Position numbers and translations under genes: made by a program. Shown piece after piece: positions 2,619 to 47,655 of a stretch of 48,099 nucleotides of DNA (within the stretch, counting starts at the first letter, position 1; the number at the start of each line of letters is the position of its first letter). Location of the stretch: NCBI GenBank assembly GCA_017379935.1, contig JAFNVC010000021.1, positions 1 through 48,099 of the forward strand, in the 5' to 3' direction. The notes beneath the pieces are model-generated. The model had not been told where the DNA came from and made no database searches. It worked only from the letters and a program-made list of their open reading frames with translations. The DNA is from Clostridia bacterium. Its GTDB lineage: Bacteria; Bacillota; Clostridia; Oscillospirales; Acutalibacteraceae.

Positions 2619-3178
2619 TTATTCATACTCATATAGTGTTGTGATTTTTCGTACATACTCCTGAAAAGCATCAACCTGTTCCTGCGGTTCGATGACTTTT
2701 GCTCTATTTCCAAAAGTACAAAGCCAACCGTAAAACTGTTCGTTTATACCTGTTCGCATTTCTACCGTGAAATGACCGTTGTCAAAATTCTGGTATTTGA
2801 TTTTATCTGTTCCGATTTTCTCAACAACGGCATTCATACAAGTGTTTACAAATTTGATTGTGATAAACTTGTTTTCACCCTCGAACATAGAAAAGTTTGT
2901 TTTTGCGTATTCGGTTGCGTTGAAGTCATAGAAGTGTTCTGCACCCTCGCGTTTTTCCTCTTTGAGTTGTTTGACATTCTCCATTCGGTCTACACGGTAT
3001 GTCCATTTCTTTTGGTTCTTTTCGTCAAAGCAAATCAGGTAGTAATTACCGTCATTGATTAGCAGGTGATACGGACTGACGATGTATTTCTCATCTTTTC
3101 TGCCGTACTTCAATTTCGGCTTGTCTGTTCCTTCTGGAATGTAATAATTGTTGTAGTTGAAATCAACTTTACATCTTG
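2619..3178 (-). pseudogene. WYL-domain transcriptional regulator, N-terminal part missing
   Basis: The minus-strand frame encodes a WYL ligand-sensing domain (KYIVSPYHLLINDGNYYLI, WTYRVDRMENV) and a C-terminal WCX-like region. Family members normally have a winged-helix domain plus linker before this. Here recognisable WYL sequence starts at about 3175 (CKVDFNYNNYY). The frame stays open to 3302, but those 40 residues resemble no HTH and lie antisense to the neighbouring surface-protein gene. The simplest reading is loss of the 5' half at a junction near 3175-3180. Whether the remnant is translated is unknown; without its DNA-binding domain it should not act as a normal repressor. Confidence 0.6.
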
Positions 3179-4912
3179 CGGTATGAAGATTATATAAATG
3201 AATATGGTTATTGGAATTATGAAACAGGTAAAGTTGATGGTGCTTTTTGGAATCTGAATATATTAGAAATAGAAAAAGATTTTGTTTTATATGAATTTTC
3301 ATATCGTGGTCATTCTGTAAATTTCACCGCCAAACACGTGGATAAATACATTAAGAGCGTTTCCGTTTTATCTGAGCCGACATCAACAAATTGTTCAGGT
3401 GCATTGATTGAGATTGCATACTCTGATAATACCGTAGCAACAGCAAAAATTTTAAATTTTGATGGAAGATTCGGCGATAATCATGATGGTTATTGCTATG
3501 CTGGTGGTTTTGTTAGAACGGATGTAGGTATATTTGATGGATTTTATGCTTACGAAAATTTGTTTGAAACAGAAAAAGCTTGCTTTGCGCTTGGGCTGGG
3601 AACCTATGATTTTGTTGAAGAAACACCCCGGTATACTGATTTTTATAAATATTTTGCTTTAGTAAGAACTAATGAATTAGCTTGGTCTTTGGGCGGTGGA
3701 TACAATTGGGAGTTCTCTCTCGACAGACAAATATTTGAGGGAGAACTGACAAACAAAAATATTGATGCGATGATGTATACTGCGCGCTATCTTGTTGGTT
3801 ATTTGTATGATGTTGATTATAGTACAAAAGAAATTAGCGGTGACATTGCGAGGGCAATGTTGGCGAAAATTTTTAACGTCAGAAATATCGATTTGACTCT
3901 TTCCAATTTCTATAATCCAAACGAAGATATATATGAATTTGCTGTATTTGATAGCGGCTGGGGTGATGGTGGTATACTTGAGACTTACGATATAGATATA
4001 TATGGTGATTGTTACTATATAACCAAAATCGTAGATGATTTAAAAGGAGAACACTTGTATACCTATTATGCATTCTTCGAATCAGATGGAAGATGTTCAT
4101 ATTTCAACTCAACTCCTAAAAAATTCACTTCACTTGAAATAGAAACACTTCCGAATAAAACTGAATATTTTGTCGGTGATACCATTGATCTCGGTGGCTT
4201 GAAACTGAAATACACTGATGAATTCGATCAGGTAACTATAATTGAAACTGAATTTGACACCAATATAACTATTTTAGATTCAACAGAGATTAAGGATATT
4301 ACAATTACTTACAAGGGTTTAGATGTTAAAATTCCTGTAAATGTTAAATCGTTGGAACTTACAAAAATTTCTGTAAATGCCTTACCGAACAAACTCTATT
4401 ATAAATGTGGAGATATGTTCGACTCAACAGGATTGAAGCTGTTGCTTACTCATAATAGTGGTAAAACAGAAATAATCGATTCAGGATTTATTTGTATTCC
4501 TGAATTGCTGTCGGTAGCAGGCAATCAGGTGGTTGCTGTAATGTATGGTGGCTTAACAACAACGTTTACAGTTAATGTTTCTGAAGCAGGAAATGTTGTT
4601 AATGGCAAAGTCAACAGTGTATCTGTATCAGATACATCACTCGCTTACAAGGCTACAACAACAATCACACCGACAATCAGTGCTGATGCAGGAGTTGAGT
4701 ACACTGTTACTTATTCTTCATCAAATCCGTCAGTAGCATCAGTTGACGAAAACGGTAAAGTAACAACAGGCAAGACCGGTTCTGCAACAATCACAGTTAC
4801 AGTAACAGACGAATACGGCAACACGGTCACAGACACTTGCGACGTTTCAGTTAATTATAACTGGTGGCAGTGGATTATCGTTATCGTTCTCTTCGGCTGG
4901 ATCTGGTATTAA
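3176..4912 (+). CDS. Ig-like domain surface protein, probably 5'-truncated
   Basis: The frame begins about ten bases after an upstream stop, has only a TTG at 3176 as candidate start, no ribosome site, and no in-frame ATG for almost 600 bases. No signal peptide is present although the rest looks extracellular. An uncharacterised N-terminal region covers about residues 1-315. Two Big_3-type Ig-like domains (about 317-393 and 394-473, each with PNK..Y..GD) and one Big_2-type domain (about 482-560) follow. The protein ends in a 17-residue aromatic, hydrophobic tail (WWQWIIVIVLFGWIWY). The same tail ends the unlinked protein at 27551-29053. I infer that the promoter and signal peptide were lost at the junction with the WYL remnant. 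Confidence 0.65.
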   Translation: MRYEDYINEYGYWNYETGKVDGAFWNLNILEIEKDFVLYEFSYRGHSVNFTAKHVDKYIKSVSVLSEPTSTNCSGALIEIAYSDNTVATAKILNFDGRFGDNHDGYCYAGGFVRTDVGIFDGFYAYENLFETEKACFALGLGTYDFVEETPRYTDFYKYFALVRTNELAWSLGGGYNWEFSLDRQIFEGELTNKNIDAMMYTARYLVGYLYDVDYSTKEISGDIARAMLAKIFNVRNIDLTLSNFYNPNEDIYEFAVFDSGWGDGGILETYDIDIYGDCYYITKIVDDLKGEHLYTYYAFFESDGRCSYFNSTPKKFTSLEIETLPNKTEYFVGDTIDLGGLKLKYTDEFDQVTIIETEFDTNITILDSTEIKDITITYKGLDVKIPVNVKSLELTKISVNALPNKLYYKCGDMFDSTGLKLLLTHNSGKTEIIDSGFICIPELLSVAGNQVVAVMYGGLTTTFTVNVSEAGNVVNGKVNSVSVSDTSLAYKATTTITPTISADAGVEYTVTYSSSNPSVASVDENGKVTTGKTGSATITVTVTDEYGNTVTDTCDVSVNYNWWQWIIVIVLFGWIWY

Positions 4913-27550: not shown

Positions 27551-29053
27551 TTAAATGTACCAGATCCATCCGAAGAGGATGTAGATGATAATCCACTGGA
27601 GGAACGAATATTTGACGGTAACCTCACATGTTGCAACAACCGAGCCGTCAGCGGTTGAGGCTGTGATTGTGGCTGTGCCGAGGTTAGCACCGTAAATCTC
27701 ACCGTTTTCGTTTACCGTTGCAACGTTTTCGTCGGATGATGACCAGATAATTTCAGCTGAATAAGCGGCCTCCTCGGGGTAGATGTTAACGAAGAGTCTT
27801 GTTGTGCCTCTGAAGTTCATATTGATTTCTGTCTGATCGAGGACAAGCTGTGAAACCTGAGCGATGAGCTTATCAACCGCGCGCTCCTCATCAATACCGC
27901 AGTTATCGCAGATTCTTCTCTCGATACCCGTTGAGCTGTATGTCGGAGCCTTTACTGTTGCCCAGTCGGACCACTTGTGGCCGGTATGTGTTGCGACCTG
28001 TTCATTCTCAACGCTCTTACAAGCGGGGCAGTATTTACGGATGTAGCCATCCTCTGTGCAGGTCGGGACCTTGACGTCGTCAATCCAGAGGTGGTCTGTC
28101 GGTTCAAGAACAGTTGTGCTTACAACCTCACCGCAGGAGCAGATAAGCTTTTCATAGCCGGGCTCGGTACAGGTCGGGAGCTTAAGGTCACGATTGACAC
28201 CTGTATGCTCGGTAGGCTCAAGTGTTTCTTCTTCTACAACCACGCCGCAGGAGCAGACAACCTTTCTGTAGCCGCTTTCTGTGCAGGTGGGAAGCTGCTC
28301 GTCGATGTGAGTGTCGATATGGCCTGTTGCGCCGAGTGTTGTCTCGGAGATATATTTCTGACAATCGTTACAGAATACCTTTTCAATACCGTCCTCTGTA
28401 CAGGTGGGGTCAGTGGTTTCGGTCTTTGTATTCAGGTGATCTGTTGTGGGAATGCTTTTTGAATCGGCAATTTCGTCGCATTCTGTACAGTAAGCAACCT
28501 CAGTGCCCTCTTCGCCACAGGAAGGAGCCTTTGTCTGAGTCCATTCTGTATCAGCGGTATGAGTATGCTCTGCGGGGATTGCGTTGATGATAACTGTTTC
28601 ATCGGTAACGTCTGTACCGTCAACATCGGCACTGTCGGATTCGATATAGCAGGTAAGGACAGTTACAGCGATGTCACTTGCCTTAACGCCTGCAGCATCA
28701 AGCTTGCTGTAGGTGTAGACAGCGATGTCAGCGGGAGCAATAATATCGTTGGAATTAGCGATACTGATTTTGCCGTTTTCCGTATTTAAGCTGCTTGAAC
28801 CGCCGCAAAGAATTTCGATTGAAGTAAGCTCGAGATTCTCGTTTGATGTGATCTGCATATCAAGGCAGTTAAGAAGATTAGCCGTAAGCTTGACAGTGAG
28901 AACAAGCTCAGTGGTTGTTTCACTTGTCTTTTCAATAGTGATTTCGGGAATTATATCCTCGGCTTCGGCAGCGAGAGCAAAAGCAGGGACAATTGTCAGC
29001 ATCATAAGTACGCTGAGCAATACCGCAAGAGATTTTTGGTATATTTTTTTCAT
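27551..29053 (-). CDS. Secreted cohesin-like / Cys-repeat / Big2 surface protein with LFGWIWY tail
   Basis: 500 residues. A signal peptide covers residues 1-28 (LLSVLMMLTIVPAFALAAEA). A beta-rich region at about 30-155 resembles a cohesin or Ig-like fold (LVLTVKLTANLLNCLDMQI). Between about 165 and 395 lie six tandem units of roughly 40 residues with the pattern H, PTCTExGY, then C-x2-C. Next is a Big_2 domain (about 398-480, IWSSSDENVATVNENGEI). The protein ends in an 18-residue tail (QWIIIYILFGWIWYI). Such Cys-pair repeats are common in gut Firmicutes surface proteins and are of unknown function. Promoter and strong GGAGG site are present. Monocistronic. Confidence 0.85.
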   Translation of the reverse strand: MKKIYQKSLAVLLSVLMMLTIVPAFALAAEAEDIIPEITIEKTSETTTELVLTVKLTANLLNCLDMQITSNENLELTSIEILCGGSSSLNTENGKISIANSNDIIAPADIAVYTYSKLDAAGVKASDIAVTVLTCYIESDSADVDGTDVTDETVIINAIPAEHTHTADTEWTQTKAPSCGEEGTEVAYCTECDEIADSKSIPTTDHLNTKTETTDPTCTEDGIEKVFCNDCQKYISETTLGATGHIDTHIDEQLPTCTESGYRKVVCSCGVVVEEETLEPTEHTGVNRDLKLPTCTEPGYEKLICSCGEVVSTTVLEPTDHLWIDDVKVPTCTEDGYIRKYCPACKSVENEQVATHTGHKWSDWATVKAPTYSSTGIERRICDNCGIDEERAVDKLIAQVSQLVLDQTEINMNFRGTTRLFVNIYPEEAAYSAEIIWSSSDENVATVNENGEIYGANLGTATITASTADGSVVATCEVTVKYSFLQWIIIYILFGWIWYI

Positions 29054-29084
29054 ACGGGTACCTCCAAATTATATATACAGATAT

Positions 29085-29113
29085 ATAATAATATTTTTTC
29101 TGAAAAAGGTCAA
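29085..29113 (-). promoter_or_regulatory. Promoter of the repeat-rich surface protein
   Basis: Minus-strand TTGACC (29108-29113) and TATTAT (29085-29090) with a 17-base spacer. Confidence 0.65.
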
Positions 29114-29210
29114 TGTTTCTTTTAACAAAAAATTACAGTCGGGTTTGGTGCTTTTAACATATTTGTGATATTTCATCCCGCAAAGAAAAGAATAAAGGTG
29201 AGGTGATGGC

Positions 29211-30815
29211 TTGAATAAGCGAATTATTGCAGTGTTTACGGCTTTTGCAATGGTGTACGGTATATGCTGTCTGCGGCTGTATACTCTTTGTGTTGCCAAT
29301 CCGGCGGCTGCATCGAATCAATCAGGAGGGTACACCGTAGAGGTGCAGAAAATCCGCGGAGATATACTCGGCTGCAACGGTGAAAAGCTGGTTTCACGGG
29401 ATTATGAAAATATCGTCGTTGCAAAGCCTACCAATGAAGCTCTGTCTGTGCTTGAAAAGGTGCTTGACAGTCAATCGTATTCGGAAGCGGAAAAACGTAT
29501 GCAGTCGGGCAATGCGGTTTCAGTCAACATCGGCAGGCTGGAAATCGCTCAGACGGCCGATGCCGTTATGCTGAGAAAATATAACAGATATTCTGAAAAT
29601 CAGCTTGCCCGGCATATTATCGGATATCTTGACGGTGAGGGAAGGGGAGTTTCGGGAATTGAAAAAAGCTTTGACAGCCTGCTTTTTACAGAAAAAAGTC
29701 TTTCTGCTACGATGAAATCGGATGTTTACGGAAGGATACTCAGCGGAAAGCGTATCGAAATCCGCAACAGCAGTCCCGAAATCGCTTCTGTTATGCTGAC
29801 CGTTGACAGCCGATTTCAGCTTGTGACGGAAAATGCACTTGATGTCAACGGTGTTGAATGCGGAGGAGCGGTAGTTGTGGAAATCGCGACGGGTGCTGTA
29901 CGCGCGTGTGCATCCCGTCCGGATTTTGATACGTACAATCTTGCTGACAGCCTCAACGATGAAAGCTCTCCGCTTCTTAACCGTACACTCGGTGCGTATG
30001 CGGTCGGCTCTGTGTTTAAGGTTGCTGTTGCCGCCGCGGCACTTGAAGGCGGTATAAACGATTTTTATTATACCTGCAGCGGAAGCTGTGAGGTGGACGG
30101 GATAACCTTCAGCTGTAACGATAAAACAGCCCACGGTGAGCTTGATATTAAGAAGGCACTCGAATGCTCGTGTAATACGTTTTTTATTGAGCTGGCGAAA
30201 AGGACGGGCGCGGAAAATATTCTTGAAACAGCCTCGCTTCTCGGCTTCGGTCAGGAGATAGCTCTTGCGGAGGGGATTGTTTCAAAATCAGGTGTTCTGC
30301 CGACGGCGCAAAAGCTGTCATCGTCGGGTGCACTCGCTAATTTTTCATTCGGTCAGGGTGAATTTACGGCAACTCTCCTGCAGCTTGCCCAGATGATGGC
30401 AGCCGTAGCAGACGGCGGCAGATATATACAGCCTTATATAATAGAAAAGGTGACTTCAGCCGACGGAACGGTTCTGCACACGCACGAAAAACCGTATCCG
30501 ATAACGGCACTGAGCGAAAAAACTGCAGCGAGGCTGACACGGATGCTTACAAGTGTCGTCGAAAACGGCAACGCGCAGAAGGCGAGACTGAAAAACGGAA
30601 TTTCTGCGGCGGGCAAGACTGCGACGGCACAGACAGGCACCTTTAAAAACGGGAAAGAAATCTGCAACACGTGGTTTGCGGGATTTTTTCCTGCGGATAA
30701 TCCGCAATATGCCGTTGTCGTTCTCAAGGAGGGCGGGGAGTCGGGTGCAACGGATTGTGCCCCTGTATTCAGAAGCATTGCAAATAAAATTGCAGACTTG
30801 AAAAATTTTTCATAA
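29211..30815 (+). CDS. Class B penicillin-binding protein (transpeptidase)
   Basis: 534 residues with an N-terminal signal anchor (AVFTAFAMVYGICCLRLY), a dimerisation domain (RGDILGCNGEKLVSRDY) and a transpeptidase domain. Active-site motifs are Ser267-x-x-Lys270 (GSVFK), Ser320-Cys-Asn322 (SCN) and Lys469-Thr-Ala471, so the usual KTG is KTA (GKTATAQTG). It cross-links peptidoglycan outside the membrane; the PBP2/SpoVD subgroup cannot be decided. The start is TTG 29211 behind GAGGTG; an ATG at 29206 is out of frame and closes after two codons. No mreC or rodA neighbour is present. The stop is only 15 bases before the -35 of rpsB. Confidence 0.92.
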   Translation: MNKRIIAVFTAFAMVYGICCLRLYTLCVANPAAASNQSGGYTVEVQKIRGDILGCNGEKLVSRDYENIVVAKPTNEALSVLEKVLDSQSYSEAEKRMQSGNAVSVNIGRLEIAQTADAVMLRKYNRYSENQLARHIIGYLDGEGRGVSGIEKSFDSLLFTEKSLSATMKSDVYGRILSGKRIEIRNSSPEIASVMLTVDSRFQLVTENALDVNGVECGGAVVVEIATGAVRACASRPDFDTYNLADSLNDESSPLLNRTLGAYAVGSVFKVAVAAAALEGGINDFYYTCSGSCEVDGITFSCNDKTAHGELDIKKALECSCNTFFIELAKRTGAENILETASLLGFGQEIALAEGIVSKSGVLPTAQKLSSSGALANFSFGQGEFTATLLQLAQMMAAVADGGRYIQPYIIEKVTSADGTVLHTHEKPYPITALSEKTAARLTRMLTSVVENGNAQKARLKNGISAAGKTATAQTGTFKNGKEICNTWFAGFFPADNPQYAVVVLKEGGESGATDCAPVFRSIANKIADLKNFS

Positions 30816-30830
30816 AATCGAAAAAAATGC

Positions 30831-30859
30831 TTGATTTAAAAAATGTCTTGTGCTATAAT
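30831..30859 (+). promoter_or_regulatory. Promoter of rpsB-tsf
   Basis: TTGATT (30831-30836) and TATAAT (30854-30859), 17-base spacer, TGC just before the -10. A leader of about 98 bases follows, with no motif I can name. Confidence 0.8.
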
Positions 30860-30963
30860 CTATCGGCAATCATTACACACGCAGTGCGTTCAGAGCGAAG
30901 TGCATTGTAAAAATGTCCGCTTTTTAAGCCCTGCGGAGGCAATAACTAAGGAGGAAAAAAATT

Positions 30964-31695
30964 ATGCCGGTAGTATCAATGAAGCAATTACTCGAAGCAG
31001 GTGTTCACTTCGGACACCAGACAAGAAGATGGAACCCGAAAATGGCTCAGTACATTTTCACAGAGCGTAACGGTATCTACATCATCGACCTTCAGAAGAC
31101 AGTTGGTAAGCTTGAGGAAGCTTACATGTTCATCCGTGAGGTTGCTGCAAACGGAGACGAGGTTCTCTTCGTAGGTACAAAGAAGCAGGCTCAGGATTCT
31201 GTTAAGGAAGAAGCAATCCGTTGCGGTATGCCCTACGTTAACGCACGTTGGCTCGGCGGTATGCTCACAAACTTCAACACAATCAAGAGAAGAATCAAGA
31301 GACTTGAGCAGCTCAAGAAGATGGAAGCTGACGGAACATTCGACCTTCTTCCGAAGAAGGAAGTTATCAAGCTCAACCTCGAAATCGAGAAGCTTGAGAA
31401 GTTCATGGGCGGTATCGTTAACATGAAGAAGCAGCCCGCTGCTATGTTCATCGTTGACCCCCGCAAGGAAAGAATCGCAGTTCAGGAAGCAAAGAAGCTC
31501 GGTATTCCCCTTGTAGCAGTTGTTGACACAAACTGTGATCCCGATGAGATCGACTACGTTATCCCCGGTAACGACGACGCTATCCGCGCTGTTCGTCTTA
31601 TCGCAGGTGCAATGGCAGACGCTATCATCGAAGGTCGTCAGGGCGAGCAGACAGAAGCTGCTCCTGCTGAGGCTGAAGAAGCAGTTGCTGAATAA
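30964..31695 (+). CDS. rpsB: 30S ribosomal protein S2
   Basis: 243 residues. The family start [20 protein letters not shown] and the later [14 protein letters not shown] and [20 protein letters not shown] are diagnostic. S2 joins the small subunit late and is needed for S1 binding. The C terminus is an Ala/Glu-rich tail typical of Clostridia. AAGGAGGAAAAAAATT precedes the ATG. The gene is followed by tsf with a hairpin between them, the conserved bacterial order. Confidence 0.98.
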
Positions 31696-31704
31696 TTAAC
31701 TTAT

Positions 31705-31738
31705 AAAATAAGTCCGTGCAAAATGTGCGGACTTATTC
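31705..31738 (+). other. Hairpin between rpsB and tsf
   Basis: AATAAGTCCG (31707-31716) pairs with CGGACTTATT (31728-31737). No T run follows, so it may be a weak attenuator, processing site or stabiliser that sets the S2:EF-Ts ratio (inference). Confidence 0.55.
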
Positions 31739-31770
31739 CAAATTAAGAATTTCGATTGGAGGAAATTAAA

Positions 31771-32871
31771 ATGGCATTTACAGCTAAAGACGTTCAGGCT
31801 CTTCGTGAGAAGACAGGCGTTGGTATGATGGATTGTAAGAAGGCTCTTGTTGAAACAGATGGCGACATCGACAAGGCTATTGATATTCTCAGAGAGAAGG
31901 GTCTTGCTTCTGCTGCTAAGAAGGCAAGCCGTGTTGCTGCTGAAGGCGTTGTTGCAGCATACAACGATGCTAATGCAGGTGCTCTTGTTGAGATTAACTG
32001 TGAAACAGACTTCGTTGCTAAGGGTGCTCCTTTCGTAGAGCTTGCTGCTAAGGTTGTTAAGACTGTTGTTGCTGCAAAGCCCGCTGATGTTGACGCTCTT
32101 CTTGCTACAAAGGCTGTTGATTCAGATAAGACAGTTGAAGAAGAGGTTCAGGAGGTATTCCTTGCTCTTCGTGAGAATATGAAGGTCCGCAGATTTGCTC
32201 TCGTTGAGGGTCACACTGTATCTTACATCCACGCAGGCGGTTCTGTTGGTGTTCTTGCTGCATTTGATGTTGACGATGCAACAGCAGCTAACGATGAGTT
32301 CGTTGCAATGGGTAAGAATATCGCAATGCAGATCGCTGCTATGAATCCTGAGTATCTCGGTAAGGCTGACATTTCAGCTGATGAGCTTGCAAAGATGCAG
32401 TCAATTACAGTTGACAGCGCTCTCAACAAGCCCGAGTCACTTCCCGTGCCCATCCTCAACAGCCTCATTGATGAAGCAATCAATGACAAGAAGTGGAGCG
32501 ATGAGGACGCAGAGACCTACAAGGGTCTCGACCAGAAGCAGAGAAAGAACTTCCCGAACTTCATTTCAAAGGAAGCTATGGCTACTCTTGCAGAAATCGC
32601 AGTTGCACATAAGGCTGAGATTTCTGAGAATAAGATCTTCACAGGTCTTGTACAGGGTCGTCTTTCAAAGCAGATCAAGGAAGTTTGTCTCCTTGAGCAG
32701 GCATTCGTTCGTTCAGACCTCTTCGAGGGTGACGTAAACGGCTACATCAACTCAGTTGCTAAGGCACTCGGCGCAGACATCAAGCTTAAGAGCTTTGTTC
32801 GTTTTGCAAAGGGCGAAGGCATCGAGAAGAAGGTTGACGATTTCGCAGCAGAAATCGCTAGCATGATGTAA
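31771..32871 (+). CDS. tsf: Elongation factor Ts, enlarged form
   Basis: Guanine-nucleotide exchange factor for EF-Tu. ATG 31771 follows TTGGAGGAAATTAAA. The N-terminal UBA-like domain (VQALREKTGVGMMDCKKAL) and the TDFV motif (residues 80-83) are standard. The protein is 366 residues, while many bacterial EF-Ts are near 290-310. The extra roughly 65 residues lie in the C-terminal dimerisation domain (about 219-285) before GLVQGRLSKQIKEVCLLEQAF, where others have a short GKP linker. The frame is intact, so this is an insertion and not an error. Confidence 0.96.
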   Translation: MAFTAKDVQALREKTGVGMMDCKKALVETDGDIDKAIDILREKGLASAAKKASRVAAEGVVAAYNDANAGALVEINCETDFVAKGAPFVELAAKVVKTVVAAKPADVDALLATKAVDSDKTVEEEVQEVFLALRENMKVRRFALVEGHTVSYIHAGGSVGVLAAFDVDDATAANDEFVAMGKNIAMQIAAMNPEYLGKADISADELAKMQSITVDSALNKPESLPVPILNSLIDEAINDKKWSDEDAETYKGLDQKQRKNFPNFISKEAMATLAEIAVAHKAEISENKIFTGLVQGRLSKQIKEVCLLEQAFVRSDLFEGDVNGYINSVAKALGADIKLKSFVRFAKGEGIEKKVDDFAAEIASMM

Positions 32872-46503: not shown

Positions 46504-47655
46504 ATGAAAGCAAAAAGCATTATCGCAAAGCTTATCGCACTCGTTCTCGTGCTGACAACCGTATTTTCTTTCACAAGCGTCGGAGCATCCGCACTCGCGA
46601 AGAGTGTGCCGACCGCTTCTGAGGGTCACGCGCTCGTTATGAAGAGTGAAAGCCTCACGGTTGCAAAGAAAAAGACTGTTCAGATGACGGCAAGCGTAAC
46701 CAATGTTGACGAACAGCCGGTTATATATTGGGCGTCATCGGATGAAAGCATCGCAACCGTTGACGAAACCGGACTCGTAAAGGGCGTTTCTGTCGGTACG
46801 GTCACAATCGCGGCGGCAACCGTCGTTGACGGCGAGGTGCTCAGCGGTGAATTTACGATTAACGTAACAAAGCGCAACAACTTCCTTCGCAATCTGCTCG
46901 AAGAACGTCAGATTCTCAGCTATCAGTACAGCTATGAGGATGACTATTACTATACCAATGATAAGGATGCATGGCAGTATAATTTCGGCTTCGGCAAGAT
47001 TTACGATTTTGCATCACCTTACCTCCTTCTTGAATATGACTATATCCGCATCTTCTTTACCTACGAGGATAAGGACTGGATGCTCCAGATGTGGAAGGGT
47101 CAGTACGGACTTGTTTTCTACGGCGGAGAAATCGGCATTTATACCCGTCCTCACGACGAGAAGGGTATAGGTGCATGGACCTTCTTCAACTGTCCTGCAG
47201 AGGAAGACTGGCTTAAAATGGAAATGACGCTCTGGCACGAGCAGACGGATGGTAGCTGGAACCGTGAGTTCACAAGGGATTACGATTATTACTGGTGGTG
47301 CACAGGCTTCAAGAACGGTCACCTCCGTCAGGAGGAGCCTGCCGATGAGCTTCGTCTTACGGGCAGAATTACCTTCAAGGATGCCGAGATGACATCGCTC
47401 GTTGCCGACGGTCTTGCAGAGTGCGGATTTACCGAAAGCCTCACGAAGGACGGAATTGCACTCGACGGCTTCTATGTTGACGGCAACGATATTCATTTCA
47501 GCTGGCAGAATATCTCCGAGGCTGAAAGCACAATGTGGGTAAAGGTCAGCGCAGGTATTGTAGGTTCACTTCTCCTTCTTCCTGTTGCGCCCTTCCTCCT
47601 TCCATTTGTCGGCGCTTATGCTGCACTTGTTCTTATTGTAGATCTTGTTCTTTAA
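46504..47655 (+). CDS. Big2 / DUF4474 surface protein
   Basis: 383 residues. Signal peptide (IAKLIALVLVLTTVFSFTSVGASA), then a Big_2 Ig-like domain (about 40-125; YWASSDESIATVDETGLVKG), then a DUF4474 domain (about 140-320; DKDWMLQMWKGQYGLVFYGGEIGIYT and YWWCTGFKNGHL). Two hydrophobic C-terminal segments (SAGIVGSLLLLPVAPFLLPFVGAY) could anchor it in the membrane. DUF4474 has no known function. Unlike the other two Ig-like proteins in the window it lacks the LFGWIWY tail. Promoter and terminator are clear. Confidence 0.87.
   Translation: MKAKSIIAKLIALVLVLTTVFSFTSVGASALAKSVPTASEGHALVMKSESLTVAKKKTVQMTASVTNVDEQPVIYWASSDESIATVDETGLVKGVSVGTVTIAAATVVDGEVLSGEFTINVTKRNNFLRNLLEERQILSYQYSYEDDYYYTNDKDAWQYNFGFGKIYDFASPYLLLEYDYIRIFFTYEDKDWMLQMWKGQYGLVFYGGEIGIYTRPHDEKGIGAWTFFNCPAEEDWLKMEMTLWHEQTDGSWNREFTRDYDYYWWCTGFKNGHLRQEEPADELRLTGRITFKDAEMTSLVADGLAECGFTESLTKDGIALDGFYVDGNDIHFSWQNISEAESTMWVKVSAGIVGSLLLLPVAPFLLPFVGAYAALVLIVDLVL

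Follow-up and report, generated by a model that had tools for sequence, protein, structure and literature searches.

A conserved aromatic C-terminal tail as a candidate membrane anchor of clostridial surface proteins

Two window proteins with a common tail

How adhesins and cellulosome-like proteins of Gram-positive gut bacteria are retained on the cell surface without LPXTG signals or S-layer homology (SLH) modules is often unclear. The question is raised again by a 48,099-nucleotide stretch of a Clostridia bacterium genome (GenBank assembly GCA_017379935.1, contig JAFNVC010000021.1; hereafter, the window), in which two proteins end in a Big_2 domain followed by the tail QWIIxxxLFGWIWY. What does such a tail do? 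From sequence comparison and structural models, we propose that it is probably a WALP-like membrane anchor, portable and specific to its lineage, at the C terminus of secreted surface proteins.

An earlier reading of this DNA from its letters alone (the sequence-only reading) had reported the shared end, and translations and Pfam searches confirmed that both proteins (3176–4912 and 27551–29053) terminate in Big_2 and QWII-x3-LFGWIWY. Tail protein 1 (3176–4912, plus strand) comprises an N-terminal part without assignment, two Big_3 stretches, Big_2 (4610–4813; Pfam residues 479–546, E = 5.9e-8) and the 16-residue tail WWQWIIVIVLFGWIWY. The tail, which scored 53.5 bits with the tail profile described below, occupies 4862–4909, exactly the last 16 codons before the stop codon of a protein whose end reads CDVSVNYNWWQWIIVIVLFGWIWY. 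No signal peptide is visible in its translation and a stop codon lies shortly upstream; the gene is probably 5′-truncated. An open reading frame (ORF) for a WYL/WCX regulator, in which Pfam did not find the DNA-binding part, overlaps it head to head (2622–3302, minus strand), and as both genes look truncated near 3150–3180, a rearrangement or assembly joint is likely there.

Tail protein 2 (27551–29053, minus strand) has a signal peptide, a cohesin-like domain, Cys-rich repeats, Big_2 and the tail, as judged by translation and by alignment to its relatives, among them the third copy found by searching the whole genome (1.84 Mb in 36 contigs, about 85% complete). This third copy, on contig C28 (39371–40204, plus strand), is a 278-residue ORF ending in YTVLQWIIVIVLFGWIWY. 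The body of protein 2 is 29% identical to that of the C28 protein, whose model resembles solved cohesins in a fold search, and this alignment places a putative cohesin-like N-terminal domain at 28604–28957 (minus strand). Big_2 of protein 2 lies at 27620–27838 (minus strand; Pfam residues 406–478, E = 3.5e-8; also seen in the AlphaFold model), ahead of the tail FLQWIIIYILFGWIWY and a terminal Ile (27554–27604, minus strand), for which AlphaFold predicted a single helix (residues 93–108 of a 109-residue model); the protein ends in CEVTVKYSFLQWIIIYILFGWIWYI before its stop codon. A claim that the last 18 residues of the two proteins are near identical was somewhat strong: QWII and LFGWIWY are common to both, but identity covers 11 of the last 16 residues, and in protein 2 one more Ile follows the Tyr. 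Neither Pfam nor NCBIfam gave a match that extended into the tail of the two window proteins. A fourth match in the genome, CAGTGGATTATC on contig C8, falls within an unrelated gene, so that this 12-mer alone has little meaning.

Distribution of the tail and the proteins that bear it

Relatives of the three genomic ends were sought in 84,980 genomes (one per species, according to the tool's description) with LFGWIWY or Y[NST][WFV][LW]QWII, hits being confirmed by a Big_2-containing query, a design that under-samples tail variants. This gave 201 relatives, of which the best 80 were studied as loci. The motif was C-terminal in all 80 of these, with 0–2 residues between it and the stop codon; with 201 relatives and this constant position, the likeness of the window tails goes beyond chance. 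For counting we used 85 tails, 82 from 79 loci and the three of the window's genome, leaving out L045, which ends in GWICY. The stop codon directly followed the Tyr in 79 of the 85, while I, K or LK came after it in the other six. By their record titles, the best 80 of the 201 were all metagenome-assembled genomes, labelled Clostridia, Clostridiales, Oscillospiraceae, Ruminococcaceae or Ruminococcus, and where a source was named among them it was mostly ruminant or horse; UBA1767 is assigned to Oscillospiraceae by NCBI.

The sequence-only reading had called for a profile search for C-terminal tails, and this was made with a 24-position profile built from 28 tails. It was positive in all 18 genomes of the window's genus, with 2–16 matches each (E up to 0.01), and in 18 of 250 genomes and 10 of 135 genera of the family (E up to 0.001). 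These 18 family positives include three genomes of the window's own genus and weak or deviating matches such as those in G837 and G853, the matches having been read only where loci were taken. No further credible match was found among 245 genomes sampled from the order, where weak hits in G571 and G427 were judged spurious (frames of 31 and 26 residues), nor any among 291 from the class. As far as sampled, the tail appears to be lineage-restricted, usually multi-copy and dispersed.

A phage origin of the tail was rejected: the alignments of all 10 relatives on viral contigs were confined to the immunoglobulin-like (Ig) part, reaching at most query residue 77 of 90, and none took in the tail. 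Protein 1 had no match among plasmids. The exact DNA pattern, searched in 398 genomes of the phylum, gave three hits beyond the window's genome (L014–L016), none coding for such a tail; that in L014 encodes an internal FGWIWY, after which the protein runs on for a dozen or so residues. Two tail genes adjoin each other in genome G697 (L122, 89–1465 and 1501–3069, minus strand).

The bearers are, by their domains and N termini, secreted modular surface proteins with BspA-type leucine-rich repeats, Big_2 and Big_3, or cohesin. In 64 tail proteins scanned with Pfam (three from the window's genome, 58 of 76 eligible ORFs and three from sortase loci; 12 5′-open ORFs of 70 selected were left out), we counted Big_2 in 59, LRR_5 in 25, Flg_new in 10 and Big_3 in 9. 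A simple rule found a signal-peptide-like N terminus in 55 of 61 5′-closed tail ORFs, whereas it picked out 432 of 1,399 ORFs in the genome; three of the remaining six tail ORFs show, by eye, a signal peptide behind another start codon. A second strong hydrophobic segment between residue 100 and the tail (19-residue Kyte–Doolittle mean above 1.8) occurred in only 5 of 85.

Is the tail simply the end of a Big_2 domain? Big_2 was present in 18 of 20 tail-negative relatives, and none of the 30 Big_2 loci read there ended in this tail (three lack a stop codon, some show one gene twice, and L323 was probably read in the wrong frame). Their proteins end instead in a transmembrane helix with basic residues, an LPxTG-like end, dockerin-like ends or bare Ig strands. 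The G697 tail protein in L122, which ends in DRSQWDIWTWICYIFFFGWIWM, has no evident Ig strand ahead of the tail. Judged from these protein ends, the tail is a suffix and not part of Big_2. Neither circumstance that would have emptied the sequence-only reading of interest was found: the motif ends the protein in the best 80 of the 201 loci and is lacking from Big_2 proteins of tail-negative relatives, so it is not internal to Big_2, and the relatives and profile matches in genus and family extend it well beyond two proteins.

The tail also takes turns with another C-terminal module. In a conserved locus with two sortase-domain genes, adjoining genes that we take, from their likeness, to be thiI and cinA, a gene for a cohesin-like protein is a neighbour in at least 5 of 13 loci (counting L146 and L148; some of the 13 end near a contig end). 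Its copy in the window's genome (G000) has an N-terminal dockerin by Pfam, and the copies in G645 and G639 are 67–68% identical to it. In the G650 copy the dockerin is C-terminal, and a Cohesin match narrowly misses the Pfam cut-off. The G641 copy (44% identity) ends in Big_2 and the tail. LRR_5 proteins, too, end in either a dockerin or the tail. Dockerins attach proteins to surface complexes, and their alternation with the tail suggests, by analogy, that the tail most likely serves attachment.

Helix, strand or sorting signal

Among 82 distinct tails, V−20, G−5, W−2 and Y−1 were invariant and Q−14, L−7, F−6 and W−4 nearly so, the variable positions being −17 to −15, −12, −10 and −8. Where two tails have the same residue (Trp and Met excluded), 54% of codon pairs differ, so that selection acts mainly on the protein. 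Protein 2 and its orthologue in L094 are 37% identical overall, yet both have LQWIIxYILFGWIWYI; by this comparison, the tail is kept while the orthologous body diverges. This orthologue, close to a presumed rpsB as protein 2 is, belongs to the tail genes that stand near what we presume to be rpsB and/or tsf in five places (window 27554–32868, L019, L023, L045 and L094), bodies having been compared for the L094 pair alone.

AlphaFold models (53 sequences) showed the tail as one 16-residue helix directly after the last Ig strand; that of the C28 protein was a 15-residue helix. On an octanol scale, the median for the tails was −16.6 kcal/mol (n = 85, from −19.8 to −8.7), and that for the best 16-mer outside the tail of each protein was −3.2 kcal/mol (lowest −11.0, n = 80, overlapping slightly with the tail range). 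The tails computed were uniformly hydrophobic, with a low helical or strand moment, and aromatic residues stand at both ends, WALP-like. A fold search with the Big_2–tail model matched Ig domains, among them those of Big_2 proteins and phages, and was uninformative on the tail.

Drawing on tail position, conservation, passenger types, signal peptides, the predicted helix and the alternation with dockerins, all obtained by computation, we propose the following mechanism. The N-terminal signal peptide would direct the protein to Sec for export; as translocation ends, the hydrophobic helix of 16 residues built around QWIIxIxLFGWIWY would leave the translocon sideways, insert into the cytoplasmic membrane and remain there. 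Big_2, just outside the membrane, would act as a stiff spacer, and the passengers (cohesin domains able to hold dockerin-bearing proteins, BspA-type leucine-rich repeats and Ig repeats) would thereby be kept on the cell. The Ig strand passes into the helix almost without a linker, which leaves little room for a sortase-like cut. The tail is probably retained rather than cleaved. A reporter was anchored in the membranes of E. coli by artificial WALP tails at its C terminus (PMC6794478), and both these synthetic proteins and C-tail anchored exported proteins (PMC10924467) are held by a C-terminal hydrophobic helix, as proposed here. Those systems are, as far as the sources describe them, Tat substrates (PMC10924467) or synthetic proteins on the cytoplasmic side (N-in; PMC6794478), unlike the tail bearers, which have Sec-like signal peptides and one conserved helix. 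A literature search did not find the string LFGWIWY, nor a title or abstract start describing the tail; searching for WWQW, FGWIWY and GWIWY, we saw only WWQW among the matches listed. The tail offers a simple marker by which surface proteins can be picked out in many uncultured genomes, the majority from ruminant and horse guts.

Several observations weigh against an anchor. Helix confidence was moderate, with a predicted local distance difference test (pLDDT) of about 75 in the tail, compared with mostly 89–97 in the Ig part, and of 59–72 in the C28 helix (seven sequences). The best Kyte–Doolittle 19-residue mean reached just 1.08 in protein 1 and 1.52 in protein 2; 16 residues are short for a bilayer; and 20 of 82 tails have K, R or N at position −10, in the middle of the helix, which is awkward in a spanning helix. 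Two weak variant hits run on past the motif (G853 in L127 and G837 in L128). Codon use is skewed, with TTC for F−6 in 82% (39% in the rest of these proteins) and CTC for L−7 in 51% (15% in the rest), so some recent copying or another constraint is possible. Variability alternates in a strand-like manner from −13 to −7. Finally, invariant or near-invariant Q−14, G−5, W−2 and Y−1 would be needless in a plain anchor and thus hint at a specific partner.

The codon skew, together with the many codons common to the genome's own copies and the position of nearly all copies after an Ig-like end in the same register, would suit ordinary shared ancestry, with recently copied gene ends that are functionless in themselves. 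The 54% codon difference at identical residues and the persistence of the tail on an orthologous body only 37% identical argue the other way, and we give this explanation next to no credence. The strand-like alternation, along with the beta-branched residues and the strong conservation of identity, would instead suit a packing or polymerization strand that completes a neighbouring Ig domain in a donor-strand-like manner, with no membrane element. This we consider improbable, given the helix in both AlphaFold runs, the uniform hydrophobicity with low moments, and a bearer (L122) that has no Ig strand beside its tail.

The tail differs from known sorting signals in what surrounds the helix. As far as described in PMC3237569, LPXTG, PEP-CTERM and GlyGly-CTERM signals follow a tripartite plan of motif, helix and basic cluster. 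A simple pattern for an LPxTG-like, PEP or SGGS motif, applied to positions −80 to −14, matched 0 of 85 tails, and K or R occurred in the last seven residues of 2 of 85, in keeping with the sequence-only observation that neither LPxTG nor a positive stop-transfer end is present. By these patterns, the tail fits none of the three. It shares with PEP-CTERM/exosortase and GlyGly-CTERM/rhombosortase systems a C-terminal homology domain that occurs several times per genome, suffix-like, on different secreted proteins (again as far as PMC3237569 describes them), but it has no motif ahead of the helix, no basic cluster and no matching enzyme that we could find, and it is the helix itself that is conserved, above all its last seven residues. 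Like LPXTG signals, it is a C-terminal hydrophobic segment on Gram-positive surface proteins in genomes that contain sortases; unlike them, it lacks a sorting motif and a positive end.

Candidate partner enzymes were tested in chosen genomes, and none of sortase, exosortase or rhomboid tracked the tail. Sortases (subclasses pooled) were found in all 25 tail-positive genomes and in 28 of the 29 without the tail, so their presence does not separate the groups. Exosortase (PF09721) was found in 0 of 41 genomes, 21 of them tail-positive, with a control search positive in 1 of 14 named genomes, and rhomboid (PF01694) in 2 of the 21 genomes with the tail and 3 of the 20 without it, with a control of 14 of 14. 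In flanks of at most 4 kb, and in many cases shorter, around the best 80 of the 201 loci, no shared partner candidate was seen by eye among the 25 largest ORF clusters; the largest covered six loci, one of which itself holds a tail protein (L045), and the clustering identified L075, L077, L083, L086 and L092 as one orthologous locus. Nor was an obvious partner seen by eye, without family-by-family annotation, among 205 proteins of the window's genome with several transmembrane segments. The sequence-only suggestion of an undescribed membrane anchor gains support from the motif and charge counts, but its alternative, a sorting signal for a dedicated enzyme with a co-occurring transmembrane peptidase or transferase, does not.

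Could a local sortase act on the tails nonetheless? In G641, G772 and G855, a tail gene and a sortase-domain gene are two genes apart, and in the last two, genomes of one genus, the order is a small PQTG-type protein, a sortase, a LytR-CpsA-Psr protein (Pfam, G772) and the tail protein (L149 7231–10856 and L150 6279–9832, minus strand; Pfam on the partner genes of L149 only). However, these operons code for a separate protein with an ordinary PQTG–transmembrane–basic end, the tandem sortase locus has no adjoining tail gene in, for example, G000, G639, G645 and G650, no motif precedes any of the 85 tails by the pattern used, and sortases are equally common in tail-negative genomes. We regard the tails as very unlikely sortase substrates.

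A more serious alternative is that the tail is a recognition signal: dedicated membrane machinery, be it a transferase, a protease or a chaperone, would bind the QWIIxIxLFGWIWY helix as a whole and sort, process or cluster the protein that bears it. It would explain the invariance of G−5, W−2 and Y−1 and near-invariance of Q−14, L−7, F−6 and W−4, and it agrees with the 2–16 matches per genome in the window's genus, the several copies in further genera of the family and the suffix-like behaviour at an orthologous locus, multi-copy and suffix-like features being described for PEP-CTERM and GlyGly-CTERM as well (PMC3237569). Against it are the absence of both a cleavage-type motif and a basic cluster, the near-absence of an Ig–helix linker, the enzyme distributions above and the lack of an outstanding shared neighbour; dedicated recognition machinery was not found, although no unbiased profile search was run. 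We think such machinery rather unlikely. In the same spirit, and tentatively, the tail may mark a new sorting system of gut Clostridia, in which a dedicated membrane partner binds the whole helix, not a preceding motif, and retains, clusters or processes different surface proteins. If true, whole-helix recognition would be a principle distinct from sortase, exosortase and rhombosortase, and if the near-invariance reflects a partner, undescribed sorting machinery would be indicated.

Cohesin bearers and looser relatives

On the membrane-anchor reading, the C28 protein looks like a minimal anchoring scaffoldin. Its AlphaFold model (seven sequences) combines a cohesin fold, Big_2 and the tail, and the cohesin domain matches solved cohesins. 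All eight dockerin candidates tested from the same genome were Pfam Dockerin_1, and one further dockerin was found on contig C8; dockerin proteins may be captured by the cohesin bearers. The nearest functional parallel is offered by cohesin proteins that carry a transmembrane helix at the C terminus and have been proposed as 'nonSLH-anchoring' scaffoldins; two species are named that have one cohesin and a C-terminal helix (PMC11557425). Their helix is, as described there, a generic predicted segment, whereas the tail is one near-invariant 16-residue sequence that recurs in several genera on surface proteins of different kinds; its ends are aromatic and it lacks a charged tail.

Some relatives deviate from the tail. 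An ORF of the window's genome (C33:6774–8558) has VTVEMNAIQVIIHKIKNVFV and L128 (G837) has FTYWQWILKVLMTLFDLVRSLAKIF, while L127 (G853) continues for about 35 residues beyond VVQWLCTIFLGGFVW. Many secreted proteins among those listed from the window's genome have, by eye, Phe/Trp-rich, seemingly amphipathic C-terminal stretches without LPxTG, for example those at C24:31047–38090, C1:49394–55012, C31:21407–24895 and C36:4187–5251. These ends may form another, looser class of attachment to the surface through the C terminus, and the deviating relatives are perhaps intermediates between the two classes. Within the window itself, a protein with Big_2 and DUF4474 (46504–47652, plus strand) has a long hydrophobic end (GSLLLLPVAPFLLPFVGAYAALVLIVDLVL) that differs from the tail.
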